DNA from: Planctomycetaceae bacterium
Lineage (GTDB): Bacteria > Planctomycetota > Planctomycetia > Planctomycetales > Planctomycetaceae
Direction of reading: 5' to 3'
Assembly (NCBI GenBank): GCA_014762625.1
Contig: JABURQ010000085.1
Location: forward strand, 1 to 36,227
DNA: 36,227 bases
Part shown: positions 15,728-34,848 of the stretch, piece by piece
How the letters are laid out: every line of letters starts with the position of its first letter
Position numbering within the stretch: the first letter of the stretch is position 1
Position numbers and translations under genes: made by a program
Notes under the pieces: generated by a model
The model's database searches: none
Seen by the model: the letters and a program-made list of their open reading frames with translations, nothing else
What the model was told of the DNA's origin: nothing

Positions 15728-18289
15728 TCACGGAATGTTACCGATTGCCTCTCCACCGGCGATCGTGGACATCGCTTCAAACACGCTGGGATCGATGTTT
15801 TCCGAGACAAATCGGACTGAGCCATCCCCCATCAGGACATTCAGACCGCCTGTGTAAGGACCGCCAATGCCGTCAGGCCCGTTGATGTACGGTTTCTGCG
15901 TCAATGACCGGAGCGTGGATGGTCCTCCCTGAGCCCACGGTCCGAAGGGAGCGCTCGCTTCCGTCATCATCATCGTGTTGGACAATCCATCACGAACATC
16001 GCGAAATCGTGTTTCTCGCTCGTATCCAAACATACCGGCTCGTTTGTGTGGTAACTTCAGCATCGGAGCATCTTTCCCGATGCCGGCGATACCGACATAG
16101 TGAGTCACCCCAAACTCCCCACGCGGCTTTGGCCAACCGGGGTTCAGGAGAGTTTCAATGTCGGGAGACGTCCATTGAACGTTGGCTTTTGCTTTCCAAC
16201 CCTGACTATGGTCGAGATTATTATAAATATTAGCTTGATCGTAATAAGGAAGCAGTTGAGCGAAGAAACTGAGTCTCTCTTCCGGCTTGAGTTTTAACTG
16301 TGCCTCCTGACTTTGTGGGTTGGAAGCTCCCGTGCCGGTCGGCAGTTTCTGGTAAGTGTCGTGATAATTGTGAATGGCCAAACCTAGTTGTTTCAGATTA
16401 TTCTTGGATTGTGATCTACGAGCCGCAGTTCGTGCCTGTTGGACGGCCGGCAGCAATAATGCGACCAAAACCGGTGCCGCTGCCAGAGAACCTGCATTGG
16501 AAGCAGAAACGCCGGGAGCGGAAGATCGAGAGGTCCACTTCATCCCCTTTTCGCTGACGGTCGCGACACCGATTGACGGGAAGAGTTTCTGGGTCACCAG
16601 TGCCGCTGGCGGAAAGTCAGCCACCGAAACGTTCATCGGCACTTCCGGTCCCCCGCCGAATTGAGAGGCCTGTTTGAGCATCCCCTGCCCGAAACCGAGT
16701 AATGCCGGCAGGACTGAGGCTATCGCCTGATACCCCTGCCTGACATCCAAAGTGCTGATACTGACAAACTCGGAAGGGAGCTTCTCGAACGAGGCCAGCC
16801 ATTCTTCTGTCGGCTTCCAAGTCGGTAATTTCCCGTCAATTCGTAACAAAGTCGCTTCGACGATTTGCGGCGACAATCCCACTACCAGCCAATCCTGATC
16901 CTGAGCAATGGATATCGAAAACATCCCGTTAGCAATATTCAATATCCCGAATGGGCGTCCCTGTTTTTCGGTAATCTGCACCGTTACCGCGTTGGGAGGG
17001 GCGAGTTCGCGAATTTTATCGACGCAGAGTGCCATTGTTGTCAGCAGATTTTGCGAATCTTGCACCTCAAAAATCATCCCCAGGCTCGGCAACATGAATG
17101 ATGCTTGCGAATTATCGATAAAGACCGCATATCGTTTTCCGAGCGTCGCGAGTAAATCGGCTTGGATGTCGAAGCCCAGAAGATTGCCGAGTAGTTCTTT
17201 TCCCGACTCCGCCGGAGGAACCGACCCGGGAGGAGCCAGTTTGCTGACCGACTCATAGAGATCGAGAGCACTTTGCCAGGCTCCCGACCAATCGGACTGT
17301 CCAACATAGAAATACCCACTCGATTCCGGCATCGGGGGGATGTCGTCCAGCGTCATCGGTGTGCCCGTCAAACCTGACAGTAATCCAGTTCGCTCTCCCG
17401 GAGCCACTATTTCGGACTCCGACCAGAGAGCCTCGCCTTGCAGGCCAGACTTTGAACTGATGGTCTTCAGATTCGCCAGACCCACTTGTTCCAGCACATT
17501 GGCGACCGTCAGAGGATTCCCGTCCGCGGTGGGAATCGGTAACGGCATCGGGCCATAGGTGTCTGCGAGCATGGAAAAATCGAACCAGACGGTACTGCAT
17601 ACTTGGAAATCCTCTGCGGAAGACATCGCTGTCCACTGGCTGGATTGTGAGAGATGCTTTGAGTCAGGAGACGAAACTGTCGCAATGTTCTTCTCAACAT
17701 CGAGCCCGATCGTCATCAGGAGATGTCCGCCTTGTTTCCACAATCCCAGAGAAACTCCTGGGGAATCGGGAATCAATACCCTCTGATAGGAGACGCCATT
17801 AACCTCCCCTTGTTGAACTTGATCGCGGTAACCTTCCACCATCAGCTCCGAGATGAGAGGCAAATATTCATCCCCCTCTCTCAGGCCCAGATAGAGAGCG
17901 GGAAGCGGAGGCATCCCTTCTGTCGGCTGCAATACAACGCAAGTCGAAAAGCCTCGCTGTAACCCTTGATTCAAAACCATATCCACCGCCTCTTGCGCCC
18001 GCGGACCGCCGAGCACCGAGAGTGACTGGATCACTTTCAGAAGCGCCGGAGTGAGACCCGATTCGACGAGAGACTCGTACGCCACAGTCTCTTTCCATTC
18101 GTCGGCGTGAAGTTTGAATCCATCCCAGTTGAGATAGAGGAACGGATCGGCCGGCAAAATTTCTTCCAACGACTGAGAGACGATAGGCTGGTAGGAGGTT
18201 TTTTGAGTTTCAGGAGGTCGATTGAAGGCAATCACCGTCCCCAAACCGAGAGAAGAGGCGACAAGACACAGGAGGAAGAGTCGTTTCAT
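15728..18289 (-). CDS. Exported protein fusing an N-terminal DUF3352-like region to a DUF1559 domain
   Basis: An 853-residue protein with a signal peptide (first 21 residues, cut near VIA). Residues 30-590 form an extracytoplasmic region resembling the DUF3352-type proteins of planctomycetes; that label is tentative. From about 600 a DUF1559 domain follows, with the hallmark LLLPAVQQARTAARRSQ, NNLKQLGLAIHNYHD, a SNTMMMTE segment and the C-terminal GGLNVLMGDGSVRF motif. Free-standing DUF1559 proteins start with a pilin-type helix (FTLIELLVVIA); here that helix is internal and eroded, so it cannot be a prepilin signal. The function is unknown. It converges on the ADP-ribosylglycohydrolase gene with seven bases between them. 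Confidence 0.8.
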   Translation of the reverse strand: MKRLFLLCLVASSLGLGTVIAFNRPPETQKTSYQPIVSQSLEEILPADPFLYLNWDGFKLHADEWKETVAYESLVESGLTPALLKVIQSLSVLGGPRAQEAVDMVLNQGLQRGFSTCVVLQPTEGMPPLPALYLGLREGDEYLPLISELMVEGYRDQVQQGEVNGVSYQRVLIPDSPGVSLGLWKQGGHLLMTIGLDVEKNIATVSSPDSKHLSQSSQWTAMSSAEDFQVCSTVWFDFSMLADTYGPMPLPIPTADGNPLTVANVLEQVGLANLKTISSKSGLQGEALWSESEIVAPGERTGLLSGLTGTPMTLDDIPPMPESSGYFYVGQSDWSGAWQSALDLYESVSKLAPPGSVPPAESGKELLGNLLGFDIQADLLATLGKRYAVFIDNSQASFMLPSLGMIFEVQDSQNLLTTMALCVDKIRELAPPNAVTVQITEKQGRPFGILNIANGMFSISIAQDQDWLVVGLSPQIVEATLLRIDGKLPTWKPTEEWLASFEKLPSEFVSISTLDVRQGYQAIASVLPALLGFGQGMLKQASQFGGGPEVPMNVSVADFPPAALVTQKLFPSIGVATVSEKGMKWTSRSSAPGVSASNAGSLAAAPVLVALLLPAVQQARTAARRSQSKNNLKQLGLAIHNYHDTYQKLPTGTGASNPQSQEAQLKLKPEERLSFFAQLLPYYDQANIYNNLDHSQGWKAKANVQWTSPDIETLLNPGWPKPRGEFGVTHYVGIAGIGKDAPMLKLPHKRAGMFGYERETRFRDVRDGLSNTMMMTEASAPFGPWAQGGPSTLRSLTQKPYINGPDGIGGPYTGGLNVLMGDGSVRFVSENIDPSVFEAMSTIAGGEAIGNIP

Positions 18290-18378
18290 GGCGAATGCCC
18301 TTATAGAAAGGATTCAGAAGAGTCCGGTCTGATTATCTAGTGAGAAGCGGAAAAGATCAAAACGATTTTGACAAGATT

Positions 18379-19728
18379 TCAGACAGACGACCTGCTCGGA
18401 CGAAGCTTCAACTCCAGAATCTGGGCATAAAAGAAGATCGCCGCCGCGACGACACTGAATCCCACGCAGATCGTAAAAATCCAGGCCCCCTGCCCCAGTC
18501 CGTCGAATCCGAAACCGGTTGGTCCGTCGATGTAAATCATACGTCCTATAATGGGGACCATCACCCCGCGGATGCCCGTTAAAAACACGTGAATTCCGCT
18601 GTAGAGAGCAGAACGCTCCGGCCCCGCAAAATAGAAACTTCCGGTCAGCCAGTTGATCGATCCCCCGGCAACGCTACAGGCATGAATGAGAGTGCCGAGA
18701 TAGAACGGCCACAGCGATTGAGTCACGCCTCCGTAAGCGTAGAGCGAAAACGTGAAGGTCTGCATCACGCTAAACACACCACGCGCCAGCATCGGTGTCT
18801 GATTCGCCAGAAACCGCCCCCACAGTGGTGCTGTGAGAATGATCGTCACGCTGGGGATGACGACCGCGATCAGGTTGATATGCGTACGACTGACTCCCAT
18901 TTGTTCGTTCAGGACATTCGGAACCAGATACATCGCCATCTGATTTCCGATGCCGACGATGAAGAACGCAAGCTCGTAGCGCAGGAATCGTTTGTCGCCC
19001 CAGAATTCTTTCATTCCGCGAAAAAATGCAGGGAATGGCGATCGTGATCTCGTGCCGGAATAGAAGTTTTTCCGATGGGTGGGAATTCGGGTATAAGCCC
19101 AACCGCCAAACAACATCCCCACCCCCGCAAACCACAGCAGCCCCCAATAATACTCGGGAGCCCATTCCAGCCAGGCCCAGGCGGCCAGCGTCAAAATGAG
19201 TCCCGACATCGCCGCCATCGATCTCGTCCATCCAACCGCCGTGGAGACGTGCTCGTCCGGGTAAAGCAGCCGGAACATATTCATTTCCCCGACGCGCGCA
19301 GAGACACGCAGTCCGAGCACCAGACTCACCAGAATTGTCAGAAACAGGGGGGACTGCGGATTGATGATGATCGCGAACAAAGCCGCCGCCATCAGGAAGA
19401 GCGGCCCGATCACCAACCATCGCACGCGCAGATGTCCGGACAGCCAGGTAAAAAATGGACTGGTCAGATTCGCTCCATAGAAAACCGAAGCGATGATCAT
19501 CTGGTAAACAAGATCCGCATCGAGGATCGTTTCCAAAATCACCAGCGTCACGGGAAACAGCCGAACGATGCCCCCCGAACCGAGATTGGCGAGCGTCTCA
19601 TAGTACAGACCGGGACGTCGCTTCGCCGGTAACGATTTGAGGACGCGATCGAAAGGAGCAAAACGACTCAATCGTCTCGACGCAGAATCTCCCCGCGGAT
19701 GATCCCCTCTCTCGTTTGGCTCCTCCAT
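18379..19728 (-). CDS. Major facilitator superfamily transporter
   Basis: A 449-residue inner-membrane protein with about twelve hydrophobic helices in two halves, separated by a basic loop of about 35 residues. The first 40 residues are soluble and charged. The ATG at 19728 has AAGGA seven bases upstream; an in-frame start at 19803 would run back into the RraA-like gene and is rejected. It starts 29 bases after that gene, so the pair is probably co-transcribed and the transporter may move the substrate or product of the RraA-like enzyme (inference). The substrate is not readable from the sequence. Confidence 0.82.
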   Translation of the reverse strand: MEEPNERGDHPRGDSASRRLSRFAPFDRVLKSLPAKRRPGLYYETLANLGSGGIVRLFPVTLVILETILDADLVYQMIIASVFYGANLTSPFFTWLSGHLRVRWLVIGPLFLMAAALFAIIINPQSPLFLTILVSLVLGLRVSARVGEMNMFRLLYPDEHVSTAVGWTRSMAAMSGLILTLAAWAWLEWAPEYYWGLLWFAGVGMLFGGWAYTRIPTHRKNFYSGTRSRSPFPAFFRGMKEFWGDKRFLRYELAFFIVGIGNQMAMYLVPNVLNEQMGVSRTHINLIAVVIPSVTIILTAPLWGRFLANQTPMLARGVFSVMQTFTFSLYAYGGVTQSLWPFYLGTLIHACSVAGGSINWLTGSFYFAGPERSALYSGIHVFLTGIRGVMVPIIGRMIYIDGPTGFGFDGLGQGAWIFTICVGFSVVAAAIFFYAQILELKLRPSRSSV

Positions 19729-19757
19729 ACCGCATCCTTGGCGGAAGACTCTGACGC

Positions 19758-20486
19758 TCAAGCACGCAGTTCTTCGCTCAACTTCTTCATGAGGGCGGCA
19801 CACTCGGCGCGAGCATCATTGAGGCCCTCCGGGGTAATGTTCTCACCGCGTACGTAATTCAGAACGACTTCCTCAGCATCCATCAATCCTCGGCAGGCAT
19901 CTGCCACCTGACCGGCGATTTCATGTGGGATCGTCGTCACCCCGTTCAGATCACCGTGCAACAGATCCCCCTGATAGACCGTAATCCCTCCGACGCTCAC
20001 CGGGACCCCGACTGACAGAATATGGCAGTAGCCGTGGGCGCAGATCGCGCCGTTCGTAAACGCGGGAAACCCGATCGCTTCCACCTGATCGAGATCGCGT
20101 CCCGCTCCCGAAGTAATCAACCCTTTGGCACCGAACGCTTGATACGTGGTACACATCACCTCGCCGAATGTGGCGGATTTCACCGGTTCGTCCAGATCCT
20201 GGAACGTAATGACGGGAGGACCGGGCAGTGAGTCATAGGCTTCCACCTGCTTCGACATACTGGCGTAAACATCGCCGTCGCGGGGAGGAGACATGCTTCG
20301 GAAAGTTGAAGTCAACGCATATCCCACCATCGGCGGCATCTTGGGAAAGCATGCCTTGATCGTCTCATTCATGAAGCCGACGTTCCGGGGACGCACATCA
20401 AACAACTCAATCGCATTACAAACCGTCGGCGTATCAAATGAAGCTAAATCGGCGAGTTGCTTTTCCGTCAATCCGTGTAGCGCCAT
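19758..20486 (-). CDS. RraA-family protein (4-hydroxy-4-methyl-2-oxoglutarate aldolase-like)
   Basis: A 242-residue cytoplasmic protein. The RraA/HMG-aldolase fold is shown by the DTPTVCNAIE segment near the start, GEVMCTTYQAFGAKGLITSG, the core RDLDQVEAIGFPAF (Arg-Asp of the metal and pyruvate site), and GDLLHGDLNGV later. Such proteins cleave or decarboxylate small 2-keto acids (oxaloacetate, HMG), or in E. coli bind RNase E; the intact acidic site favours an enzyme. AGGA precedes the ATG. It leads a minus-strand set with the MFS transporter and possibly the DUF1559 fusion protein. Confidence 0.85.
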   Translation of the reverse strand: MALHGLTEKQLADLASFDTPTVCNAIELFDVRPRNVGFMNETIKACFPKMPPMVGYALTSTFRSMSPPRDGDVYASMSKQVEAYDSLPGPPVITFQDLDEPVKSATFGEVMCTTYQAFGAKGLITSGAGRDLDQVEAIGFPAFTNGAICAHGYCHILSVGVPVSVGGITVYQGDLLHGDLNGVTTIPHEIAGQVADACRGLMDAEEVVLNYVRGENITPEGLNDARAECAALMKKLSEELRA

Positions 20487-23070: not shown

Positions 23071-24525
23071 TTAGGCCAGCAGATCCTGCTGAATAATGGG
23101 ATCGTTACTGGGGCCGATCAGTCGCTGGTCGAGTCCCTGATAGGGGAATTTCAATTGATAAGGGTCAATCCCCATTTGATTCAGCATGGTGGCTTGCAGA
23201 TCGTGAACGGTCACCTTGCCGTCAGTGACGAAATAACCCAGGTCGTCAGTCTGGCCGTGTGTGTAACCTGCTTTGACGCCTCCTCCTGCCATCCAGATCG
23301 TGAAGCAATGTGGATGATGGTCGCGTCCGAGAAACTTGGATTTATTCCGCTCTTCGTTGAGAGGCGTCCTCCCGAATTCTCCCGACCAGATCACCAGCGT
23401 CTCGTCGAGCATGCCCCGTTCCTTGAGATCGTTCAGAAGTGCCGAGATCGGTCGATCGATCTCTTTGCATTTCCCAGGGAGTCCCTGGGCGATATCGTTG
23501 GAGGCATTCGTGCCGTGCATATCCCAGCCGTAATGAAAGAGTTGCACATAACGCACGCCCGACTCAACCATCCGACGTGCGAGCAGACAATTGTTGGCAA
23601 ATGACTCTTGACCGGGTTCAGTCCCGTAAGCTTCGTGAACGTGTTTCGGCTCCTGGGCCATATCCATCACTTCCGGAACCGCCATCTGCATGCGAAAGGC
23701 CAGTTCGTACTGACTGATCCGGGCTTCCGTTTCGGGATCTCCGAGTCGTTCGAGTTCTTCCTGATTCAATTTGCGAATGGCGTCGAGACTTCGCCGGCGT
23801 ACATCCCTCGGCATCCCTTTCGGATCGGAAACATACAAAATCGGTTCACCGACCGTTCGGCATTGAACACCCTGATAGACTGAGGGCAAGAATCCGCTCC
23901 CCCACAAACTCTTACCTCCCGAAGGATCGGTTCCGCCGCTGATCAACACCACGAAACCGGGCAGGTTTTCATTTTCAGAACCGAGCCCGTACGTGATCCA
24001 CGAACCCATCGACGCGCCGCCGAAGCGCGGTGATCCGGTGTAAAGAAACAGTTGAGCGGGAGCGTGATTGAATTGATCGGTCCACATCGACTTGACGATG
24101 CACAGGTCGTCGGCATGTTTGGCCAGATTGGGAAGGAGTTCGGAGAATTCCTGTCCGCTTTCGCCATGTTTGGCAAACTTGTGCGGCGTTCCTAACAGCT
24201 TCGGACGCCCCTGCTTCAAGTTGATAAACGCCAGACGTTCCTTTTTGAGGACTTCCAGCAATTCATCGGGACACGGCTGCATATTGTGTTCGACCAGTTT
24301 TGGCTTGTAATCGAACATATCATGCTGCGGCGGAGAACCCGCCATATGCAGATAGATCACCCGTTTCACTTTGGCGGGACGATTTGGCAAACCGGGCGAA
24401 GGCCCTTTCGCACTCGTCGTTTGACCCATGAGAGACGCCAGTGCGACCCCACCCAGTCCGTATCCCCCCTGTCCGAGAAAATGACGGCGGGTGGTCGATT
24501 GCAGATATTGTTGTTGAATATTCAT
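23071..24525 (-). CDS. DUF1501-family exported protein (sulfatase-like fold)
   Basis: A 484-residue protein with a Tat-type signal: the twin Arg at residues 13-14 (TTRRHFLGQGG) is followed by a glycine-rich hydrophobic stretch. The typical DUF1501 blocks are present: RVIYLHMAGSPPQHDMFDYKP, GSWITYGLGSENENLPGFVV, GWDMHGTN, the catalytic-looking WSGEFGRTP, and GRDHHPHCFTIWMAGGG. The family belongs to the alkaline phosphatase/sulfatase superfamily and is greatly expanded in planctomycetes next to DUF1553 genes; its substrates are not established. It follows the DUF1553 gene after 15 bases on the same strand, so they form one operon. Confidence 0.88.
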   Translation of the reverse strand: MNIQQQYLQSTTRRHFLGQGGYGLGGVALASLMGQTTSAKGPSPGLPNRPAKVKRVIYLHMAGSPPQHDMFDYKPKLVEHNMQPCPDELLEVLKKERLAFINLKQGRPKLLGTPHKFAKHGESGQEFSELLPNLAKHADDLCIVKSMWTDQFNHAPAQLFLYTGSPRFGGASMGSWITYGLGSENENLPGFVVLISGGTDPSGGKSLWGSGFLPSVYQGVQCRTVGEPILYVSDPKGMPRDVRRRSLDAIRKLNQEELERLGDPETEARISQYELAFRMQMAVPEVMDMAQEPKHVHEAYGTEPGQESFANNCLLARRMVESGVRYVQLFHYGWDMHGTNASNDIAQGLPGKCKEIDRPISALLNDLKERGMLDETLVIWSGEFGRTPLNEERNKSKFLGRDHHPHCFTIWMAGGGVKAGYTHGQTDDLGYFVTDGKVTVHDLQATMLNQMGIDPYQLKFPYQGLDQRLIGPSNDPIIQQDLLA

Positions 24526-24540
24526 CGTCAGACTTTTCGG

Positions 24541-27477
24541 TTATTTACTGAGAACTGCATCAAGGTTGAGAAGCACATTGGCAACCACGGTCCAGGCCGC
24601 CGCATCAGCAGGTTCCATCTCTTCGGGTAACGGCCCCAACGGATCGGTCGCCAGAAGTTTGGCTTCCTCGATGTGTTGCTGATAGTAAGTCCGCTCCGAC
24701 TGATACAGACCTTTGATGGTTTGCAATTCTTTGGAAGTCGGAGGCTTTACCAGCACCAGCTTCAAGACCCAGCGAGCACGATCTTCGAGAGAGCCCCCGC
24801 CTTCCCGGATGATCCTTCGAGCGAGCGCCTGAGCCGCCTCCACATACACAGGATCATTGAGAGTCACGAACACCTGCAAAGGAGTATTAGTGCGAATACG
24901 TCGAACGTTGCAGATTTCCCGACTCGGGGCGTCGAACGTCGCCATCGACGGATAGGGAACCGAACGTCTCCAGAAGGTATAAAGACCGCGTCGATACTTG
25001 TCGTCCCCTTTGCTCTCGGGCCAGGTCCGTTGTCCGTTGAACGCCGCCCGCCAGAGTCCCGGCGGTTGCGGAGGATAAACGGACGGTCCGCCAATCTTGC
25101 GACTCAAAAGACCGCTTAAGGCCAATGCCTGATCCCGGACCATTTCCGCTTCCAGACGGAATCGAGGACCGCGTGAGAGCCAGGTGTTATCGGGATCGAT
25201 TTCAAGTTGCTGCGAGGAGGCTTCCGCCGACTGTCGATAGGTGGCCGAGGTGACCATCAATTTCAGCAAACGCTTGATATCCCAATCCTGCTGAAATTCC
25301 ACCGCCAGCCAGTCCAACAGTTTCGGATGACTGGGCATTTCTCCCTGCGAACCGAAATCCTCCTCGGTCACCACCAGTCCGCGCCCGAAGATCTTCGCCC
25401 AGATCCGATTCACGGCCACACGTGAAGTGAGCGGATTATCGGGATGGACGAGCCACTTCGCCGCATCGAGACGAGATTTGGCCTCACCGTCCAACTGGTG
25501 GAACTCGTGCGGCAAACCCGGATTCACTTTCTCCCCCGGACTCAGAAAATTACCGCGAATTTGGACGAAAGTTTCACGTTGTTCCTCGGGAGGCAATTCC
25601 TGCATCACGGGAACCGTCGGGACTGCCGGTTTCGATTTCTGCAGCGAAGCAATTCGTTGTTTCAATTTCTGCAACTCGGGATCGAGCGTTCGATAATAGG
25701 TGGCGATTCTCTGTGTTTCTTTGTCGCCCCAGGCTTCCCGTTCCTTCTTCAGGATGGCGAGCACATCCTCGGGAACTGTCAATCGGCTGTCCACAGCGTA
25801 TTCCGCCGACACTTTGGGAGCTTCTTTGACTTCCTGGGTCCAGACGGTTTCGCGAACCGCTTTGCCCTCTTTCTGTTGTTCGTTGATCAGCAGAATGCGA
25901 AAATTGTTCAGACGGCTGTAAACCGAACCATCGGTCCGGTTCCAGACGACAACCTTGTCGATCTCACGCTCCGATCCCAAATCAACTTCCCACCAGGGAT
26001 CGTTACTCGATTTCGTATGTGTTGTGGACTTGGCGTCGAAATAGTGTCCGTCGGTGTTGCCGTCGATAGCGAGTTTGGCCGGTCCGTCGTAATCCGTACT
26101 CGACTGACTTGCCGTCCCTTTTAAGGCGATGTTTTCTTCTCCAGAGAAAACCTGCACCTCAGCGAGCGACAGCATTTTTCCCTGACCGGGCAGTTCGATC
26201 CGCACAAACCGAGCCCTAACCGGTTCCGCCTCCGATTGAATCGCCTCACGCGTCTTCTGGATCCATTGATCGCGACGTGTCTGTAATTCCGGCGTGTTGG
26301 TTTGTAGCTGCTCTTTAAGCTCATCAATTTGTGAATCGATCGCCGCGACCTGATGTTTCCACTCCTCGGTCGGGGCCTCAATCGTGGGGGCCTCATTGGG
26401 CAAATCGCGATCGGCTGTCTGATTGAAGAGACTGTAAAAGCGGTAATACTCTTCCTGTGAGATCGGATCGTATTTGTGAGAATGGCATTTCGCACATCCC
26501 ATCGTCAGCCCCATCCAAACCTGAATCGTCGTATCGACTCGATCCTTCACGGCAGCGACGCGAAACTCTTCGTCGTCGGTCCCGCCTTCGGTGTTCGTCA
26601 TCGTATTGCGATGGAAGGCGGTCGCCACTTTTTGATCGAGCGTGGCTTCCGGCAACAGATCCCCCGCCAGTTGCTCGATCGTAAATTCGTCGTACGGCAG
26701 ATTACGGTTAAACGCCCCAATCACCCAGTCCCGATATCGCCAGATATTTGGACGCAACGGATCGGAACCATACCCGCGAGAATCGGCATAGCGGGCGAGA
26801 TCGAGCCAGACTCGCGCCCATCGTTCTCCATAAGCCGTATCGGCCAGAAAACGATCGACCAGATTCTCGTACGCTTCCTCGGAATCGTCAGACACGAACT
26901 GTTCGACTTCTTCAGGTGTCGGAGGCAATCCTCGTAGATCGAAGCTGAGCCGTCGAATGAGTGTAAAGCGATCCGCCTGGTCGTTGGGAGACAATCCCTT
27001 CTCGTGCATTTTGGAAAGCACGAATGTGTCAATCGGATTCTCTCGCCACCCCGCCCGGTCGACTTCCGGAACGGGTGGGCGTTCCGGTTTCACGAAAGAC
27101 CAGTGACGCGAATAGTTGGCCCCTTCCGCCACCCATTGTTTCAGTGTCTCGATTTCGTCCTGGGTCAATTCGTGTCCGGAATCGGCAGGCGGCATCAGGG
27201 AGAACTCATCATCGGTCGTAATTCGCGCAACCATTTCGCTCTCACCCGGTTTTCCGGGAACGATCGCGGTCATACCGCTGTCGAGTTCCGATTTCGCAGA
27301 CTTCTCATCCGTGAGATGCAATCCCCCTTCACGATGTTCGGGATCGGGACCGTGACAGGCGAGACAGTTCTTCGACAGGATCGGACGCACATCGCGATTG
27401 AAGTCGATCTCGTCGGCATAAACGCCATTCGCACTCAGTACGAAAATGGGCATCAACAAGAGGAGGAAATATCGCAT
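24541..27477 (-). CDS. PSCyt1/DUF1549/DUF1553 planctomycete cytochrome-type protein with an F5/8C-like domain
   Basis: A 978-residue exported protein. The signal peptide covers residues 1-21. The PSCyt1 module has a haem c site, CLACH, at 38-42 (NRDVRPILSKNCLACHG). DUF1549 follows (RWARVWLDLARYADS; a second site, CAKCHSHKYDPISQEEYYRF, near 325). A discoidin/F5-8C-like domain fills about 434-545 (LAEVQVFSGEE... WWEVDLGSEREIDKVVVW), and DUF1553 forms the C-terminal third (NRIWAKIFGRGLV, RRSVPYPSM). The domain order suggests carbohydrate binding combined with electron transfer at the cell envelope. An in-frame start at 27633 is rejected because the signal peptide begins at 27477. It leads the DUF1501 gene. 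Confidence 0.88.
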   Translation of the reverse strand: MRYFLLLLMPIFVLSANGVYADEIDFNRDVRPILSKNCLACHGPDPEHREGGLHLTDEKSAKSELDSGMTAIVPGKPGESEMVARITTDDEFSLMPPADSGHELTQDEIETLKQWVAEGANYSRHWSFVKPERPPVPEVDRAGWRENPIDTFVLSKMHEKGLSPNDQADRFTLIRRLSFDLRGLPPTPEEVEQFVSDDSEEAYENLVDRFLADTAYGERWARVWLDLARYADSRGYGSDPLRPNIWRYRDWVIGAFNRNLPYDEFTIEQLAGDLLPEATLDQKVATAFHRNTMTNTEGGTDDEEFRVAAVKDRVDTTIQVWMGLTMGCAKCHSHKYDPISQEEYYRFYSLFNQTADRDLPNEAPTIEAPTEEWKHQVAAIDSQIDELKEQLQTNTPELQTRRDQWIQKTREAIQSEAEPVRARFVRIELPGQGKMLSLAEVQVFSGEENIALKGTASQSSTDYDGPAKLAIDGNTDGHYFDAKSTTHTKSSNDPWWEVDLGSEREIDKVVVWNRTDGSVYSRLNNFRILLINEQQKEGKAVRETVWTQEVKEAPKVSAEYAVDSRLTVPEDVLAILKKEREAWGDKETQRIATYYRTLDPELQKLKQRIASLQKSKPAVPTVPVMQELPPEEQRETFVQIRGNFLSPGEKVNPGLPHEFHQLDGEAKSRLDAAKWLVHPDNPLTSRVAVNRIWAKIFGRGLVVTEEDFGSQGEMPSHPKLLDWLAVEFQQDWDIKRLLKLMVTSATYRQSAEASSQQLEIDPDNTWLSRGPRFRLEAEMVRDQALALSGLLSRKIGGPSVYPPQPPGLWRAAFNGQRTWPESKGDDKYRRGLYTFWRRSVPYPSMATFDAPSREICNVRRIRTNTPLQVFVTLNDPVYVEAAQALARRIIREGGGSLEDRARWVLKLVLVKPPTSKELQTIKGLYQSERTYYQQHIEEAKLLATDPLGPLPEEMEPADAAAWTVVANVLLNLDAVLSK

Positions 27478-27523
27478 GGTGTGCTTCAATAGTGTGTGGG
27501 AGGATTCTTCAGGCAGGAATTCA

Positions 27524-27529
27524 ATTATA
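27524..27529 (-). promoter_or_regulatory. Possible -10 box for the DUF1553-DUF1501 operon
   Basis: On the minus strand a TATAAT lies at 27529-27524, about 47 bases before the chosen ATG. The -35 region is poor (no TTGACA-like hexamer at 16-18 bases), so this is only suggestive. It supports the start at 27477 over the upstream start. Confidence 0.3.
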
Positions 27530-27652
27530 ACAGTCTTTTGATACGAAGGGAGAGGGCTTTTTCGGATCGGAAACTGAAATCCTTGCTTCCCCCCGGCGAC
27601 TCTGCTCTGATAGTCGCTTTCACACCCTCCCACGCTTCATTTTGAGACAGTT

Positions 27653-28468
27653 ATGGTCAATTTTATCTACTCTCTGAACTCCAGCACCATCAAGCCGACT
27701 CCGATTCTGGACAAAATCCGTATCGCCGCCAAAGTCGGCTACAAAGCGATCGAACTCTGGCACGACGACATCGATAAGTACATCGCGGAGGGAGGCCAGA
27801 TCCAAGACATCCGGAAAGCCGTCGATGACGCGGGCCTCCTGGTTCCCACGACGATCTTCCTCAAAGGCTGGTGGGATACCGAGGGGGACGCATACATCGA
27901 GAAGATGGATGAAATCAAACGACGACTCGCCCAGGCCGAAATTGTCGGCGCTACGCACGCCATCGCCGGACCGCCCCAGGGAGAAGTCGATTTCTCACAC
28001 GGCGCGAAACAATACGCCAAACTGCTGGAGGTTGGCAAAGAGTTCGGCGTGAAGCCGGTCTTCGAGTATCTCGGCTTCGCTCAGCAGGTCAACACGATCG
28101 AAATCGCCAAACAGATCATCGAAGAAAGCGGCCATCCCGATGCGTCGATGGTCGTCGATCCCTTCCACTGTTTTCGAGGCGGAGGCGGCATCGACGGCAT
28201 CAAAGACCTCAAGCCGGAGCAGATCGCCATCTCGCACTTCAACGATGCTCCCGACGATCCGCCACGGGAGACACAACACGATCCCGACCGGGTCATGCCG
28301 GGGGACGGCGTCATCGAGCTCAAGAATTACTGCCGTTACCTGAAGCAGATCGGCTACGACCGCTGCCTGTCACTGGAACTGTTCCGCCCCGACTTGTGGG
28401 AACAGAATCCGGAAGAAGTCGCCTCGACTGGTCTGGAGAAAATGATGGCGATTGCCGAGAGTGTGTGA
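27653..28468 (+). CDS. Sugar phosphate isomerase/epimerase-like TIM-barrel protein (AP endonuclease 2 superfamily)
   Basis: A 271-residue cytoplasmic protein with the xylose-isomerase-like barrel. The expected metal ligands can be matched: Glu138 (FEYL), Asp169 (VVDPFHCFRGG), His195 (SHFND) and Glu242 (SLELF). A loop rich in Asp/Pro/Arg (PDDPPRETQHDPDRVMPGDG) lies between the last two. Relatives include hydroxypyruvate isomerase, myo-inosose dehydratase and 3-keto-sugar epimerases; sequence alone does not decide. It is transcribed away from the DUF1553 operon and converges on the FAD oxidoreductase with nine bases between. The neighbourhood (FAD oxidoreductase, DUF1080) suggests handling of a sugar or cyclitol. 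Confidence 0.83.
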   Translation: MVNFIYSLNSSTIKPTPILDKIRIAAKVGYKAIELWHDDIDKYIAEGGQIQDIRKAVDDAGLLVPTTIFLKGWWDTEGDAYIEKMDEIKRRLAQAEIVGATHAIAGPPQGEVDFSHGAKQYAKLLEVGKEFGVKPVFEYLGFAQQVNTIEIAKQIIEESGHPDASMVVDPFHCFRGGGGIDGIKDLKPEQIAISHFNDAPDDPPRETQHDPDRVMPGDGVIELKNYCRYLKQIGYDRCLSLELFRPDLWEQNPEEVASTGLEKMMAIAESV

Positions 28469-28477
28469 AGTGAATGA

Positions 28478-30577
28478 CTACTTCTTCACCCACTGCACCG
28501 CATCCGCGATCACATAGCCATCCGCACCTTCGTTGGAGATCGTCACGACCGCAGGCTGCCCTTTGTCGAACTTGAAGGTCCCCACCGAGACGAAAAGTCC
28601 GTCAATCGGCGGTTTCTTCCGTTGATTCACGCGGACTTCTTTTCTGCCGTCTGCCGATTCCACAATCACCAGAGCGTTGCTGGCGCGGTTGTTGTTCGCC
28701 GGATACGAGATACGAACCTCGTACTCGCCGCTCTCGGGAAGTTTGGCTTCGTAGCGGACCGACAGTTCACCCTGATTGTTGTTGCCGTCGTGCAGATAGG
28801 AGCGATCCACCCACAACGCGTTGGAATGACTCGGCGTCCAATGGCCGTCAACCTTCGCCTGCACGTCGTCCACAACAATCCCGGCTAACGACTTACTGGA
28901 GACACTTTTCTCAGCCGCTCCCGGCGGCAGGAAATTTCCTTCCAGAATTTGACCGTCTTCAAGAAGCTGCTCCTTGATGGTGTCGTACGGGACATCCTGA
29001 ACGGCGGAGTCTGACTCAATCGCCATCACGCCCACCGTGGCGGCGGACTGTCCCAGAATCATAAAGACCGGCTCCATACGAATACTGCCGAACGCTATAT
29101 GCGAACTGGAAACGCAGACCGGCACCACAAGATTGGTGCATTCCTCTTTTTTCGGCAGGACGCTTCCCAAAGCAATCGAATACGGCCCCCGCGTCGAGAC
29201 GCCGATGTCTCCCTCGTTCTGAACGTAACCTTCCGGCGTGATGTAGCGCTGGACGTTGTGGGAATCCATTGTGTACGAGCCCATCCCGATTGGCTCGGGT
29301 GTAGGCCGACGCTTGAGAAGCTCGTTTTCGGTCATCACGTAATCGCCGATCATCCGACGCGCTTCGCGGACATAAATCTGATGCGGCCAGTTGCCGTTAT
29401 CGGTGAATTCATCCTTCGCCAGACCCCAGTGACTGAACTTCTCGCGAACATCGGCGGGCACACGAGGATCGTTGGCCAGAAAGTACATCAATCCTTTCTG
29501 ATACACTTCATGCTCTTTGATGATCTCGCGTCGTCGTTCGTAACTCGCTTCCGGATAATCGTAATTGTAGCCGATATTGTCGGTGCTGAACGGACCGTGA
29601 TTGTTAGTGTCGGTTTTGTGATTGGGGATCGGATCGAATTTGCGAAACCCTTCCCGCCAACCGGCATTCAGAACGCGTAACAACAGTTCGTACTGCGAGG
29701 GATCGTAGCCGTCCGGATTGGGAAACGGGACCCGATTGGCGTCATCATCGGTCAGACACATCCGGAAGCAGTACGCCTGCACCTTGTTGTCCCCCGATCC
29801 GTATTCGCCGGGATCTTCCGTGCTGATCCGCGGCAACACTCCGCTATTCGGATCGCCGGGAATCTTGTACGGCGAGATCGGTTCATCGAGAACGCCGAAA
29901 TGGTGTCCGTGATGCAGAACTCCCGTCTGCACGCCGTTCCATTCCTCGCCGTAAACGTCTTTCGCCTCACGCCCCACATGATAGGAAACACCGGCAGCCG
30001 CCATGAGATCTCCCTCGTAGGTGGCGTCGATAAAGACCTGACCGGCAAACGTTTTCCCACTGAGGGTGGTAATGGAAGTGATCCTCCCCTCTTTCATTTG
30101 CACGCCGTTTTCTCGATCCAGCCATTCATCACGGAAAACGGGAATCTCGTAGTCCTCAACAAATTGATCGAACACCGCTTCCGCGACGTGCGGCTCGAAA
30201 ATCCACATCGTCCGCTGATCGCCGTCGATCGCAGCCGTCCCCTGCCCTTTGTTGCCGTACGACTCGCGACTCTGCTGCTTCCAGGCCTCCGGTTTCTGAT
30301 ATTCTTTCCAGACCCGATGATAAAATTCCCGCGACAACCCGCCGATCACCTGTTTGTTCCCGGTATCGGTCCAGCCGAGTCCCCCGCTCGACAGCCCGCC
30401 GAGATGAGCGTCCGGCGAGACGATCACCACGGAGTGCCCCATCTTCTTCGCCTGCACCGCAGCCGTCACCGCAGCCGAGGTCCCGCCGTACACGACGACG
30501 TCATATTCCTCCGAGTGAGCGGCATTTGAAGAGACAAACAATGAGATCTGCAGAGCGAAAACGAGCGAGCAGCGCAT
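28478..30577 (-). CDS. Exported FAD-dependent oxidoreductase with a C-terminal golvesin/xanthan-lyase-like domain
   Basis: A 699-residue protein with a cleavable signal peptide (about 20 residues). The FAD-binding Rossmann start is VVVYGGTSAAVTAA (glycines at 31-32), followed by HLGGLSSGGLGWTDTGN, the hallmark of the FAD_oxidored family (PF12831-type), and FIDATYEGDLMAAAGV. From about 565 a beta-rich domain follows, with SGEYEVRISYPA and GYVIADAVQWV, typical of golvesin/xanthan-lyase tails that may bind sugar polymers. It probably oxidises a carbohydrate in the periplasm. The ATG at 30577 has GGGAG upstream; a TTG at 30580 adds one residue. It lies downstream of the DUF1080 gene but is separated from it by a terminator. 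Confidence 0.85.
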   Translation of the reverse strand: MRCSLVFALQISLFVSSNAAHSEEYDVVVYGGTSAAVTAAVQAKKMGHSVVIVSPDAHLGGLSSGGLGWTDTGNKQVIGGLSREFYHRVWKEYQKPEAWKQQSRESYGNKGQGTAAIDGDQRTMWIFEPHVAEAVFDQFVEDYEIPVFRDEWLDRENGVQMKEGRITSITTLSGKTFAGQVFIDATYEGDLMAAAGVSYHVGREAKDVYGEEWNGVQTGVLHHGHHFGVLDEPISPYKIPGDPNSGVLPRISTEDPGEYGSGDNKVQAYCFRMCLTDDDANRVPFPNPDGYDPSQYELLLRVLNAGWREGFRKFDPIPNHKTDTNNHGPFSTDNIGYNYDYPEASYERRREIIKEHEVYQKGLMYFLANDPRVPADVREKFSHWGLAKDEFTDNGNWPHQIYVREARRMIGDYVMTENELLKRRPTPEPIGMGSYTMDSHNVQRYITPEGYVQNEGDIGVSTRGPYSIALGSVLPKKEECTNLVVPVCVSSSHIAFGSIRMEPVFMILGQSAATVGVMAIESDSAVQDVPYDTIKEQLLEDGQILEGNFLPPGAAEKSVSSKSLAGIVVDDVQAKVDGHWTPSHSNALWVDRSYLHDGNNNQGELSVRYEAKLPESGEYEVRISYPANNNRASNALVIVESADGRKEVRVNQRKKPPIDGLFVSVGTFKFDKGQPAVVTISNEGADGYVIADAVQWVKK

Positions 30578-30598
30578 CAATGGACTCCCTGTAACGAG

Positions 30599-30640
30599 AA
30601 AAAAACGGGACAGACATCACGGCGATGCCTCTCCCGTTTG
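30599..30640 (-). terminator. Rho-independent terminator between the DUF1080 and FAD oxidoreductase genes
   Basis: Read on the minus strand, AAACGGGA pairs with TCCCGTTT (30632-30639 with 30603-30610); the 21-base loop holds a second small stem (GCATC/GATGT). A run of seven T follows. The next gene starts 22 bases further on, so the oxidoreductase is either made from read-through or from its own promoter. Confidence 0.82.
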
Positions 30641-30662
30641 TAAACAATAGTAATGAGTCGGA

Positions 30663-31976
30663 TCAGAGTTCCTTGATCCAGAGGTTCCGGAACTTGACCG
30701 GATCATTGTGACCGGCAAATCCGAAGTACCCTTTCTCCAGCATCTTGCCGGGGTGCGGCGAATTGGCCATGTATTCCGTGATCTTACTGAGATCGGTATC
30801 CAGAATCGTCGTGCCGTTCAGTTCGACCTTGATCGTCGATCCTTTCACGGTCACCTGCTGATAGTTCCATTCGCCCGTCGGACGCAAATATCCTCGCTGG
30901 GCGGCCGCCATCCCGTACGCCGAACCGTGATACTGACGCGGATCCAGTTTGGCGTATTTCGGATGTTCGCTGTCCAGCACCTGCAATTCGGTCATCCCTG
31001 CATAAGCCGGATTCCCGCTTCCCGGATAGCGAATCGCCAACCCGTTGTTTCCGCCGGGAGGCAGTTGAAATTCGAGACGGACAACGAAATCAGCGTATTC
31101 TTTCGCCGTATGAATGTGTCCCCCTTGTCCCTTCTTGCACATGATCGCGCCATCGACAATCTGATAGTTGTCTGTCGGGCCTTCCCAGCCGGTGAAATCT
31201 TTGCCGTTGAAGATGCTGGTGAACTGTTTCTGATCGTAGTTCGAGTGCGCCTGCAAAATCTCATTCGCTTCCTCGTGGGGTATTTCACGAACGAAGATAT
31301 TGCGCCAGCGAATCTCTCCGCCGTGCGTCTGCAACTGAATCGGCCCCTTCGCGAACAGCGGCCGCGAGCGATCCCAGTAATTTTCCATCACCGCATGATC
31401 GACGACCAGCACATCGTTGAAGTAGACGGTCGTTTTGTCGCCGACCTGAATGATGCGGAAACTGTTCCATTCTCCGAACGGTTTGTCGGCGTTTTTCGAC
31501 GGCAATTGGCCGGAAGCCCCTTTGGAGTTATTGAACAGACCGCCCGACCCCTTGTCGGCGTTGCGATCCCATTTGCCCCCTTCTTCCGTCGTGTCCCAGA
31601 TCTGAACCTGTGGCGTTCCGCGGAGATAGATCCCGCTATCCGCCTTGGCAACCGTTTTATATTCGATCAGCAGTTCGATATCGCCGTATTCTTTGTCGGT
31701 CGTCAGATACGGACCTTTGCCGTCGTTGACCAGTTCGCCGTCATCGACGCTCCAGTGCTCTTTCGCTTCCGCGGTCCATTCCGCGATTTTGGCCTGACGT
31801 TCGGTTTCCGTCATCGCGTCCAGTTTCCGCGGATCAAAGTGCGGCATGCCGTGCCAGCCGGTCAAATCCTTGCCGTTAAATAACGCGGTAAATCCCTTGG
31901 GAGGCGTGTTTTCCGCGGCGAAACTCGAAACCGCCACACACAGAACCAGGGACAATGAAAACAGACTTCTCAGCAT
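30663..31976 (-). CDS. Tandem DUF1080 (3-keto-disaccharide hydrolase-type) protein
   Basis: A 437-residue exported protein with a signal peptide (about 20 residues). Two DUF1080 domains follow, about 27-250 and 262-437, each opening with the family hallmark FNGKDLTGW or FNGKDFTGW and each with the concanavalin-like beta-sandwich pattern (GIYLRGTPQVQIWDT in the first, GLAIRYPG and ELQVLD in the second). Characterised relatives hydrolyse 3-keto-glycosides. The copies are diverged, and only one may be active. GGAG lies eight bases before the ATG. It ends at a terminator before the FAD oxidoreductase. Confidence 0.86.
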   Translation of the reverse strand: MLRSLFSLSLVLCVAVSSFAAENTPPKGFTALFNGKDLTGWHGMPHFDPRKLDAMTETERQAKIAEWTAEAKEHWSVDDGELVNDGKGPYLTTDKEYGDIELLIEYKTVAKADSGIYLRGTPQVQIWDTTEEGGKWDRNADKGSGGLFNNSKGASGQLPSKNADKPFGEWNSFRIIQVGDKTTVYFNDVLVVDHAVMENYWDRSRPLFAKGPIQLQTHGGEIRWRNIFVREIPHEEANEILQAHSNYDQKQFTSIFNGKDFTGWEGPTDNYQIVDGAIMCKKGQGGHIHTAKEYADFVVRLEFQLPPGGNNGLAIRYPGSGNPAYAGMTELQVLDSEHPKYAKLDPRQYHGSAYGMAAAQRGYLRPTGEWNYQQVTVKGSTIKVELNGTTILDTDLSKITEYMANSPHPGKMLEKGYFGFAGHNDPVKFRNLWIKEL

Positions 31977-32083: not shown

Positions 32084-34216
32084 GTGACGAAGGAGACCGT
32101 CACTGAATACACCGGCGGATTTTCCAACAGCGGCAGTAGCAGTGTCAGCGTCGATTTCGACGTCACTGGCGGTTGGAACGGAACCACCTACACGCTGACC
32201 GGCCACACTAACTCCCATCAATCGCATAGCCAATCCGCCAGCGATACCATGACGCTGCGGACCATCCAGTATCAGAAAAGCAGCAGTAACGCCACCGATA
32301 TCGATATGAGCATCTCGCTCTCCGGCGGCGAAACCTTCTCCGTCAGCACCCACACCAGCAATTCCTCGATCCTCGGCGCCCCGATGGGCGGCCCTGTCGA
32401 GTTCTACCAGTCGATCGATTTCCAGGGGCAGCCGAGCGGCAGCGTCAGTCTCGGCGGCACCTACAAAATCACCGACGTCAGCAACTACGAAACCGAAAAC
32501 ACCAGCTCCTGGGAAGATTCGCACTTCAAGGATCGCACCACCACCGAAACCCTCGTCTCCGGCAGTAACACCACCGTCACCTCCACCTACGAAGTCCTGA
32601 TCGACAAGTACCAGGGGGTCTACAACGATCCCTCCTCCTTCACGTCGAGCTACGACTACCCCACCGACCCGCAGCAGTTGAACGGCGTGCCGTATTCCTT
32701 CACCAGCATGCCGGGCCTGTTCGATCCGTTCAATTCGCTCCGCCTGGCGCTGATGGGGCAAATCGCGTCCGAAATGGGGAGCACCGCCGCCGATGACGAC
32801 ATGGCCCTCGCCGGTCAGGGCTCCGGCAACGCCGCGGGAGCCGAAAGTTCGTCGTCGGGCGTCTATTACGACACCGGCCCTCTCGATGACGGCGGCTATT
32901 GGGAAAGCTACGACGACGGCTCGTACTGGTGGTATGCCGAATACGATGCGGCGGGGAACGAGATCTACTACGAAGACAGCGACCACATGACGTTCGACAT
33001 GGGGAGTGCGCTGGCGATGGGCGAAAGCATCGGCCAGGAAGGCAACGACACCGGCGCCCCCAATCCGGATGCGCAACAAACTGGAACCTTCATGGCAAGC
33101 ATCAGTGACGATGAAGCCACGGCGAAAGCAAATGCACTCAAGTCCCAAGACTTCAACCCCAACGACCCACCTCAGGAGTTAGCTGATAGCGATGACAAGA
33201 TTGTCTATTGGGTGCGTGAAGACGGAACAACTCTTGTATATTACAACAATGGTTGGTCTGGACTTGAGTATGTCGGGAAGTTAGTTCGAGGAACAGGCGG
33301 GCAATGGATGGTCGAACGCTATGTCCCCGGCAAAGGCAACCGCTATATGAAATTGTCACAGATTGAAAAGGAGGCAAACTATTTGGGCTTGATACCTTTT
33401 GTATCAACGACGCCAAACACCACAGAAGAATACGAAGAACAGTTTTCTAAATTCGGCTGGACAACTCCAACTCCTAGACACATCGGAGCTTTAGGAAAAA
33501 GAGCAGCAGAATTAGGTCAGCAAAAGCTTTCCCCTGCGTCAAGCCTCGTACCCGGCTTGGTGTTCATTGCCGAAGCGACCGATGGAATCGCGATGGTTCT
33601 GGTCGAAGAAGGGATGATGTCAGTCATTCCATGGGGTTCAGGCGCCAAGGTTTTTGCAAAAGGTGGTAAGCTGTTCACAAAATTCGTGACCAGCAGTGGT
33701 AAGACCGTTCTGGTTGAGTTGAGTGAAAAGCAGTTGAAGCAAGTTGGTACTGCACTCAATATGGTTGATGGCAGTGCAGATGACATCGCTGAACAAATCG
33801 CGAAACTTCAGGACGAAGCTGCCGAAGGAAGTGCGGAAGCTTTAGCAAAGCTAAAAAGCATCTCTACCAATGGAGTAGAGACTGTTCTGGAGCCTACTGG
33901 ACGCAGTTGGCGACAACATGGCTCTAGGCTCTATGGAGATTTGAAGAACAAGTTTGGGCTTGAGATACCATTCAAAGCCAAAAGTGAAAACGTTAAATCT
34001 TTGGTAGCGAAGGAATATCAAAAGCTCATAAAAAATGGGACACTGAACTATCTAGGCTATGCAGACGATGTACATGGTTCGTATCATTTCTACGAGTTTG
34101 GAGGTAATTTGTACCTTTTTACGAAGGATGGTAAATTAGTTTCCCGCTGGTCACCTGGCTCTCAAGGGCGTGCTATTGAGCGAGTCCTGGAACTACTAAA
34201 TAATGGGACGAATTGA
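32084..34216 (+). CDS. Mosaic protein with the architecture of a polymorphic toxin (tip function unknown)
   Basis: A 710-residue protein with no recognised enzyme motif. Residues 1-330 are Ser/Thr/Gly/Tyr-rich and beta-prone, like a surface or Rhs-type stalk, though no YD repeats are seen and there is no signal peptide. Residues 485-535 form a hydrophobic Gly-rich patch (SVIPWGSGAKVFAKGGKLF) resembling pre-toxin segments of Rhs proteins. The last 110 residues, from EPTGRSWRQHGSRLYGDLK to the end, form a compact basic alpha/beta domain with GYADDVHGSYHFYEF. GC falls along the gene: hand counts of 60-base samples give 65% (32401), 47% (33661) and 40% (34021). GTG 32084 has AGGAG upstream and an in-frame stop at 32057. 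It overlaps the next gene by one base. The toxin role is inferred from architecture and context. Confidence 0.7.
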   Translation: MTKETVTEYTGGFSNSGSSSVSVDFDVTGGWNGTTYTLTGHTNSHQSHSQSASDTMTLRTIQYQKSSSNATDIDMSISLSGGETFSVSTHTSNSSILGAPMGGPVEFYQSIDFQGQPSGSVSLGGTYKITDVSNYETENTSSWEDSHFKDRTTTETLVSGSNTTVTSTYEVLIDKYQGVYNDPSSFTSSYDYPTDPQQLNGVPYSFTSMPGLFDPFNSLRLALMGQIASEMGSTAADDDMALAGQGSGNAAGAESSSSGVYYDTGPLDDGGYWESYDDGSYWWYAEYDAAGNEIYYEDSDHMTFDMGSALAMGESIGQEGNDTGAPNPDAQQTGTFMASISDDEATAKANALKSQDFNPNDPPQELADSDDKIVYWVREDGTTLVYYNNGWSGLEYVGKLVRGTGGQWMVERYVPGKGNRYMKLSQIEKEANYLGLIPFVSTTPNTTEEYEEQFSKFGWTTPTPRHIGALGKRAAELGQQKLSPASSLVPGLVFIAEATDGIAMVLVEEGMMSVIPWGSGAKVFAKGGKLFTKFVTSSGKTVLVELSEKQLKQVGTALNMVDGSADDIAEQIAKLQDEAAEGSAEALAKLKSISTNGVETVLEPTGRSWRQHGSRLYGDLKNKFGLEIPFKAKSENVKSLVAKEYQKLIKNGTLNYLGYADDVHGSYHFYEFGGNLYLFTKDGKLVSRWSPGSQGRAIERVLELLNNGTN

Positions 34217-34848
34217 TGGGCATCAATGCGAATATAAATGCTGAGACTCTATTAAAACTTTTTCAATCGCCTATCGAGAGGATAAGTCAGGTGGCTATCT
34301 GTTCCGATGAAGAAGATAATGCTTCAACTATCTCGCGTTCATGGGGTGGGGTTAATCCGGTTTTTGTACTTGAGTTTGAGAATAAAATAAATAGATATCT
34401 GCTAATTTCGTCTTCCGATGAATCGCTTCAATTACGCATTACTCAATCACTTGATCGCTCGGAAATCGTTCGGTTTCAAAATTATACTTTGGATGATGAG
34501 ATCAATTTATCGAACGATGTAGGATTATTTGACCTAGACTCAATCATCTGTCCGGTACCTGATTGGCAACACCTTGATGTGACCAACTTAACAATTATTA
34601 CGGCAGCAGATGGGAATGGCATACTTGGACTTTGTTTTCAAGTTAATCTAGGGATACGAATTGGGGTATTTGTTTCACCGTACCCCGGAGCCACACTGTC
34701 CTTCAATGATTCTTGTGATGAAATCTTACAACAAGCTATGCGTGCTGAAACTGATGGTCATGTACATCTCCTCTCTCTTGAATACCCCGGAAAAGAGACA
34801 CCTGAGCATGTAAGCAGTATTGATTGGTATGATTGGTTACGCACGTAA
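34216..34848 (+). CDS. Putative immunity protein for the preceding toxin-like protein
   Basis: A 210-residue acidic soluble protein that I do not recognise. It has no signal peptide and no helix long enough to cross a membrane, and has several beta-strand-like segments (FVLEFENKINRYLLISS, LTIITAADGNGILGLCFQV). Its ATG overlaps the stop of the upstream gene in TGATG, which indicates coupled translation. A small, AT-rich acidic gene directly behind a mosaic toxin-like gene is the normal position for an immunity gene; 34381-34440 is 30% GC by hand count. The function is inferred from position only. Confidence 0.62.
   Translation: MGINANINAETLLKLFQSPIERISQVAICSDEEDNASTISRSWGGVNPVFVLEFENKINRYLLISSSDESLQLRITQSLDRSEIVRFQNYTLDDEINLSNDVGLFDLDSIICPVPDWQHLDVTNLTIITAADGNGILGLCFQVNLGIRIGVFVSPYPGATLSFNDSCDEILQQAMRAETDGHVHLLSLEYPGKETPEHVSSIDWYDWLRT

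Follow-up and report, generated by a model that had tools for sequence, protein, structure and literature searches.

Our analysis of a planctomycete stretch of DNA of 36,227 nucleotides (the window) suggests, with a probability that we put at about 0.4, that the working unit of the locus is a set of four minus-strand genes, encoding a double DUF1080 protein, an FAD flavoprotein with a golvesin tail, a PSCyt/PSD1 protein and a DUF1501 protein, and that this set serves oxidative glycan cleavage. This differs from the preliminary description, which had proposed a variant 3-keto-sugar pathway made up of the flavoprotein, the double DUF1080 protein and a TIM-barrel isomerase. A set of these four families, best exemplified in the Opitutae, is plausible, and there is a real chance that the genes of the window are merely neighbors.

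An ORF check and a Pfam scan found the three open reading frames of the trio intact, with the family assignments confirmed, and the three families do lie together. The isomerase gene (27653-28468, plus strand) encodes an IolI-like AP_endonuc_2 TIM-barrel protein of 271 residues (Pfam, E=1.6e-27). On the minus strand lie the gene for the 700-residue flavoprotein (28478-30580; start codon TTG at 30580 or ATG at 30577), that for the 437-residue double DUF1080 protein (30663-31976), that for a PSCyt1/PSCyt2/PSD1 protein with an F5/8-type domain and two CxxCH motifs by Pfam and motif reading (24541-27633, with ATG at 27477 as the likelier start) and that for a DUF1501 protein (23071-24525, Pfam), which is paired with the PSCyt gene. 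The double DUF1080 and flavoprotein genes share their direction across a gap of 82-85 bp. The isomerase gene, encoded on the plus strand, converges with the flavoprotein gene, their stop codons 9 bp apart, and diverges from the PSCyt/PSD1 gene, after which the DUF1501 gene follows. Strands and positions thus give a minus-strand order of double DUF1080, flavoprotein, PSCyt/PSD1 and DUF1501, interrupted between the second and third genes by the oppositely oriented isomerase gene; the diheme PSCyt and DUF1501 genes are downstream of the flavoprotein gene on its own strand. Judged by eye, the flavoprotein and the double DUF1080 protein begin with signal-peptide-like stretches, in agreement with the export first proposed for both, and the isomerase, which looks cytosolic, does not. 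Elsewhere in the window, 32084-34848 is occupied by a 710-residue ORF, for which neither Pfam nor NCBIfam gave a match, followed by an overlapping 211-residue ORF; by eye these resemble a large protein of repeat type, variable at its C-terminal end, with a small partner. Genes for a DUF1559 (SBP_bac_10) protein, an MFS transporter and an RraA-like protein stand in a row at 15728-20486 on the minus strand.

The flavoprotein belongs, as had been anticipated, to a family other than those of the described pathways: Pfam assigns it to FAD_oxidored (PF12831, E=9.7e-112, 374.7 bits against a curated cut-off of 27) and not to the Gfo/Idh/MocA or LacA types. No Gfo/Idh match was found in the contig of the window (C112), and no LacA-type dehydrogenase among the nine window proteins scanned with Pfam. 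Its carbohydrate-binding-like tail is a golvesin C-terminal domain (residues 569-697, positions 28490-28876 on the minus strand; Golvesin_C, PF25275, E=1.5e-24, 87 bits against a cut-off of 31.6). In a structure model with a mean pLDDT of 86 this tail has the fold of the last domain of the Paenibacillus xanthan lyase 6f2p, with 33% identity, a Z score of 21.2 and an rmsd of 1.4 over 132 residues. According to the excerpted text of a review (PMC10881899), the xanthan lyase carries a terminal module, unclassified, that binds xanthan, and we infer that the golvesin-type domain is this module. The flavin part has a two-dinucleotide-type flavoprotein fold, with many flavoprotein matches at Z scores of about 15-17 in a search with the model; the matches include flavocytochrome c3, fumarate and urocanate reductases and 3-ketosteroid dehydrogenase, in a list that is not exhaustive of families and a closer comparison that spans mainly residues 18-542. 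With flavocytochrome c3 and fumarate reductase the likeness is one of flavin-domain fold (Z about 15 with ~220 residues aligned), at about 12-14% identity, and the heme is not fused in the window protein. As modeled, the fold does not separate a dehydrogenase from a reductase.

The double DUF1080 protein contains two 3keto-disac_hyd (PF06439) stretches, at about 31287-31895 and 30672-31223, both above the curated cut-off (E=3.9e-85). The best PDB match of the isomerase is IolI, with which its residues E138, D169, H195 and E242 align, all four being invariant in nine relatives; Glu, Asp, His and Glu are presumably the metal-binding residues of IolI. The isomerase could act on a released sugar, yet because it is encoded on the opposite strand and has no linkage to the other genes outside the genus it is probably not part of the core gene set. 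Around its relatives nothing recurred, with no family in more than two of the 60 neighboring genes scanned (of 69 listed, nine having been dropped by hand).

In order to see whether the trio recurs across planctomycetes, the test set by the preliminary description, we searched 59 genomes ranging from the window's own genus (three genomes) to its class, many of the assemblies being fragmented. Presence was read by hand at E<=1e-60 for the flavoprotein, as hits over both halves for the double DUF1080 protein and at E<=2.6e-72 for the isomerase, and best hits within 15 kb were counted as together. The flavoprotein was present in 46, the double DUF1080 protein in 36 and the isomerase in 24 of the 59 genomes, and the window's genus, where the gene arrangement is kept in three genomes, was the only one with best-hit orthologues 15 kb or less apart. 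The flavoprotein and the double DUF1080 protein were together in 3/26 genomes holding both, all of the genus (0/23 outside it), the double DUF1080 protein and the isomerase in 3/21, again in the genus only, and the flavoprotein and the isomerase in 3/17, also confined to the genus, two of these being read from tables (distances were computed in 15 of the 17, and G013 and G033 have the two genes on different contigs). Outside the genus 12 of 56 genomes hold all three orthologues, and in none of the 12 are the best hits together. Presence of the flavoprotein was not associated with that of the double DUF1080 protein (both, first only, second only, neither: 26/20/10/3) or of the isomerase (17/29/7/6). 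The double DUF1080 protein and the isomerase do co-occur (both 21, DUF1080 only 15, isomerase only 3, neither 20; two-sided p=0.0009, kinship not corrected), which may reflect kinship. Two looser cases were seen: second copies on contig C344 of G027, where a flavoprotein (48% identical) and a double DUF1080 protein (62%) are encoded about 7 kb apart on one strand, and a single-half DUF1080 match about 13 kb from the isomerase on contig C233 of G012.

A scan of species genomes returned 583 flavoprotein relatives, of which the best 80 were kept, so that all tallies lean to close relatives; these 80 come from Planctomycetota, Verrucomicrobiota, Bacteroidota, Acidobacteriota and a few others. Their neighboring genes were called with a codon-biased caller, which may miss genes or shift starts. 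Five related loci from Opitutae (Verrucomicrobiota; L131, L133, L135, L158 and L172) hold a one-strand gene row with intergenic gaps of about -1 to 135 bp, in the order PSCyt/PSD1, DUF1501, esterase, flavoprotein, PSCyt/PSD1, DUF1501, DUF1080, double DUF1080 and PSCyt, Pfam having been run on selected genes from L131, L135 and L158. All four families of the window (double DUF1080, flavoprotein, PSCyt/PSD1 and DUF1501) are therefore found in this single row, and the Opitutae double DUF1080 protein is 57-59% identical to that of the window at full length, over both halves. L158 and L172 carry two extra genes, of beta-lactamase and glucosamine-isomerase type in L158. When read further in G059, the row ends with a third PSCyt-DUF1501 pair, past which come a sulfatase gene on the other strand and then a gene for a GSDH/cytochrome c protein. 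In these five loci and in L193 there are two to three PSCyt-DUF1501 pairs per row, in genomes of 1.9-2.5 Mb. Partial rows also occur, as flavoprotein-PSCyt-DUF1501 (L116), as PSCyt-DUF1501-flavoprotein (L117, L138 and L121) and as a single DUF1080 gene directly before the flavoprotein gene (L066). At least two PF12831 genes stand side by side in L142, L146, L150, L160, L161, L163, L183 and L186, in Bacteroidota and other genomes, some of these runs having sulfatase or DUF1080 genes among them.

The isomerase fares differently in these relatives. Among 22 genomes searched, the double DUF1080 protein was found in 20 at E<=1e-60, with both halves matched in 16, and the isomerase in 11 at E<=1e-25, with none in the five genomes of the Opitutae row, which are small MAGs that may be incomplete. 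An AP_endonuc_2 gene near the flavoprotein gene in L119 is no orthologue, being absent from the blastp matches of the window isomerase. With linkage confined to the genus and no isomerase match in the Opitutae-row genomes we rejected the trio as a conserved unit; what stands of the proposed variant-pathway locus is the pairing of flavoprotein and double DUF1080 protein, which recurs in the five Opitutae loci, and the isomerase probably does not belong to it.

In a tree made by a quick method with no bootstrap, the window flavoprotein groups with those of its own genus and one planctomycete, and the Opitutae flavoproteins are placed elsewhere, in two separate places. Mapped on this tree, the character "DUF1080 within 5 genes", which 18 of 87 rows show, requires nine changes, at least six of them across starred branches. 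The flavoprotein tree thus does not support shared descent of the window arrangement and the Opitutae row. That the Opitutae row has had its flavoprotein gene replaced is at most hinted at, since identities between the groups are 60-65% for the flavoprotein (three pairs compared) and resemble the 58-65% of PSCyt. Nor does DUF1501 serve as a marker of the locus, a use that we rejected because, among the matches listed, the closest relatives of the window DUF1501 protein in other genera are not beside a flavoprotein gene; those nearest to a double DUF1080 gene are about 12 kb (G046) and about 43 kb (G050) from it.

The reading that best survives beside the four-gene unit is that the five genes, the isomerase gene included, are genus-specific neighbors that share no joint function in a genome rich in genes for DUF1080, PSCyt/PSD1, TIM-barrel and oxidoreductase proteins, which we consider a serious possibility although not the favored one. 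The genome of 6.2 Mb has, after merging, 33 places with DUF1080, 27 with the TIM barrel, 37 with Gfo/Idh, 66 with PSD1 and six with a strong PF12831 match. These come from 40 DUF1080 rows (two dropped, the rest merged by frame) and from the others less 2/29 TIM-barrel, 1/38 Gfo/Idh and 5/71 PSD1 rows dropped before the pair counts, the 71 matched stretches making PSCyt/PSD1 genes very common here; of 24 PF12831 matches six were retained, the others being weak dinucleotide-site matches. Under uniform gene placement and a distance of 3 kb, the abundance of DUF1080 and TIM-barrel genes is enough to account for their proximity (one pair against 1.06 expected), and DUF1080-PSD1 pairs are also near expectation (three against 2.59), both of which favor the absence of joint function. 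Flavoprotein-PSD1 pairs number none against 0.47 within 3 kb and one against 0.85 within 6 kb. Against that reading, flavoprotein and DUF1080 genes form two pairs where 0.24 are expected, although the locus was picked beforehand, so that its own pairs overstate the case for closeness; the second pair, on contig C189, encloses an alpha/beta-hydrolase gene, and its two members are oppositely oriented. The single flavoprotein-TIM pair (0.19 expected) is the window locus itself. Gfo/Idh genes lie within 3 kb of DUF1080 genes four times (1.45 expected) and of TIM-barrel genes five times (1.19 expected). On contig C126 a DUF1080 domain is fused to a glucose/sorbosone dehydrogenase (GSDH) domain (L191:2663-4558) beside a divergent Gfo/Idh gene, and farther along are a TIM-barrel gene, two sulfatase genes, a second DUF1080 gene and a second Gfo/Idh gene; this cluster is a candidate for 3-keto chemistry of a more classical look than the window, and the fusion indicates that several dehydrogenase types may serve DUF1080.

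The neighborhoods of the flavoprotein lend the same alternative some weight, and the general association of the flavoprotein with DUF1080 and PSCyt is weak. We used 79 wide loci, the best 80 relatives less L156, which has an odd match span. Within three genes of the flavoprotein, near-copies being counted, DUF1080 was found in 11 loci, PSCyt and DUF1501 in 10 each, and a protein of the isomerase type in one. By gene, near against far, DUF1080 (11/415 vs 8/275, p=0.67) and PSCyt (13/415 vs 10/275, p=0.72) gave negative tests, whereas DUF1501 (15/415 vs 3/275, p=0.03) and further PF12831 copies (16/415 vs 3/275, p=0.02) were more frequent near the flavoprotein; the test is blunted by the Opitutae loci, where genes counted as far are still members of the row. 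Within the class, 18 flavoprotein loci have DUF1080 near in one and PSCyt in one, 20 double-DUF1080 loci have the flavoprotein near in none, DUF1501 in five and PSCyt in three, and 20 isomerase loci have PSCyt near in five (p=0.11) and neither the flavoprotein nor DUF1080 in any. The lack of conserved linkage among best hits outside the genus likewise agrees with mere proximity, whereas the occurrence of the same four families in one Opitutae row and the preservation of the arrangement across three species of the genus argue against it.

Pfam tallies were made on 76 loci, with L133, L158 and L172 left out as near-copies, and omit genes of fewer than 120 or more than 800 residues, so that PSCyt is undercounted; at the adjacent positions 103 of 117 listed genes were scanned, 14 having been dropped by hand. 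DUF1080 occurs in 3/103 genes at +-1 and 3/89 at +-4 and is not among the 25 families listed at +-2, AP_endonuc_2 in 3/117 at +-2 and 2/89 at +-4 and is not among the 25 listed at +-1, being no more frequent close to the flavoprotein than farther off, and DUF1501 in three genes at +-1, five at +-2 and one at +-4. That the flavoprotein instead works with sulfatases to degrade glycans bearing sulfate or uronic acids, acting perhaps as a C-C desaturase or a reductase and not feeding DUF1080, is improbable: the sulfatase is its commonest immediate neighbor (10/103 at +-1, 6/117 at +-2 and 2/89 at +-4, with fucosidase in 2/103 at +-1), the reductases and the 3-ketosteroid dehydrogenase are among its fold matches and the DUF1080 enzyme of Thermogutta reportedly cuts xanthan and beta-glucans with oxidation unmentioned in the excerpt of PMC10881899, yet there is no sulfatase among the nine window proteins scanned with Pfam, and in the Opitutae the DUF1080 genes share strand and row with the flavoprotein while the sulfatase of G059 is on the other strand.

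For the four-gene unit we propose that the golvesin tail would hold the flavoprotein to carbohydrate, so that the flavin part could dehydrogenate a sugar hydroxyl of the bound glycan outside the cytoplasm. Electrons would then pass from the flavoprotein to the hemes of PSCyt, and the DUF1080 protein, to judge from its family, would cleave the oxidized glycoside. The isomerase would be an unrelated neighbor or would handle the released sugar in the cytosol. Whether the scheme extends to the families themselves, with PF12831/golvesin flavoproteins as extracytoplasmic glycan dehydrogenases, PSCyt/PSD1 hemes as their acceptors and DUF1080 proteins cutting the products, is more doubtful.

In the lactose pathway of Caulobacter crescentus, LacA is a GMC flavoprotein and a cytochrome subunit of LacABC takes the electrons of the dehydrogenase. 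The excerpted text of PMC9007349 describes LacABC as a dehydrogenase paired with DUF1080, with epimerase genes close to those of both. The window resembles this system in that a putative dehydrogenase is near an exported DUF1080 protein with an epimerase-type protein close by, and differs from it in that the oxidoreductase is a golvesin-tailed PF12831 protein and PSCyt/PSD1 stands where the Lac system has its cytochrome. The diheme PSCyt protein is a candidate for the cytochrome partner, being encoded on the flavoprotein strand and present in the Opitutae row; PSCyt genes are very common in this genome and, across the 79 wide loci, are not enriched near the flavoprotein. The dehydrogenases of the 3-keto locus BT2156-BT2160 of Bacteroides are Gfo/Idh/MocA proteins, of which the window locus has none, although the DUF1080 hydrolase is common to both. 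BT2157 is named a 3-ketotrehalose hydrolase (excerpt of PMC9007349), and deletions of BT2157 and BT2158 gave no growth defect on raffinose-family sugars (excerpt of PMC11501099). In the oxidation-elimination-hydration-reduction operon of Agrobacterium, TIM-barrel isomerase/epimerase-type proteins including AtOGE act on 3-keto-glycosides, and DUF1080, which the window locus has, is not mentioned in the excerpt of that paper (PMC10628242); the window isomerase is set beside AtOGE by description only, its best structural match being IolI. The endo-xanthanase of Thermogutta terrifontis is, like the protein of the window, a planctomycete DUF1080 protein, with a single domain and 23.7 kDa (excerpts of PMC5673643 and PMC10881899), and the xanthan lyase match of the golvesin tail gives a further link to xanthan; the excerpts mention no flavoprotein with this enzyme, whereas the double DUF1080 gene of the window adjoins one.

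No link between this flavoprotein, PSCyt and DUF1080 was found in the open-licence PMC literature. A role of PSCyt genes in carbohydrate metabolism has been suggested, and the excerpt of the same 2017 paper states that nothing was known of the functions of PSCyt/DUF1501 proteins (PMC5615132). If our reading is right, it would offer an assay for these proteins, of which this genome has dozens, and the Opitutae row, in genomes of 1.9-2.5 Mb, would be a better testing ground than the window. If true, it would extend the dehydrogenase types of oxidative glycoside cleavage by a flavoprotein family, and the PSCyt/DUF1501 gene pairs, abundant in Planctomycetota and Verrucomicrobiota and so far unexplained, would gain a first function.
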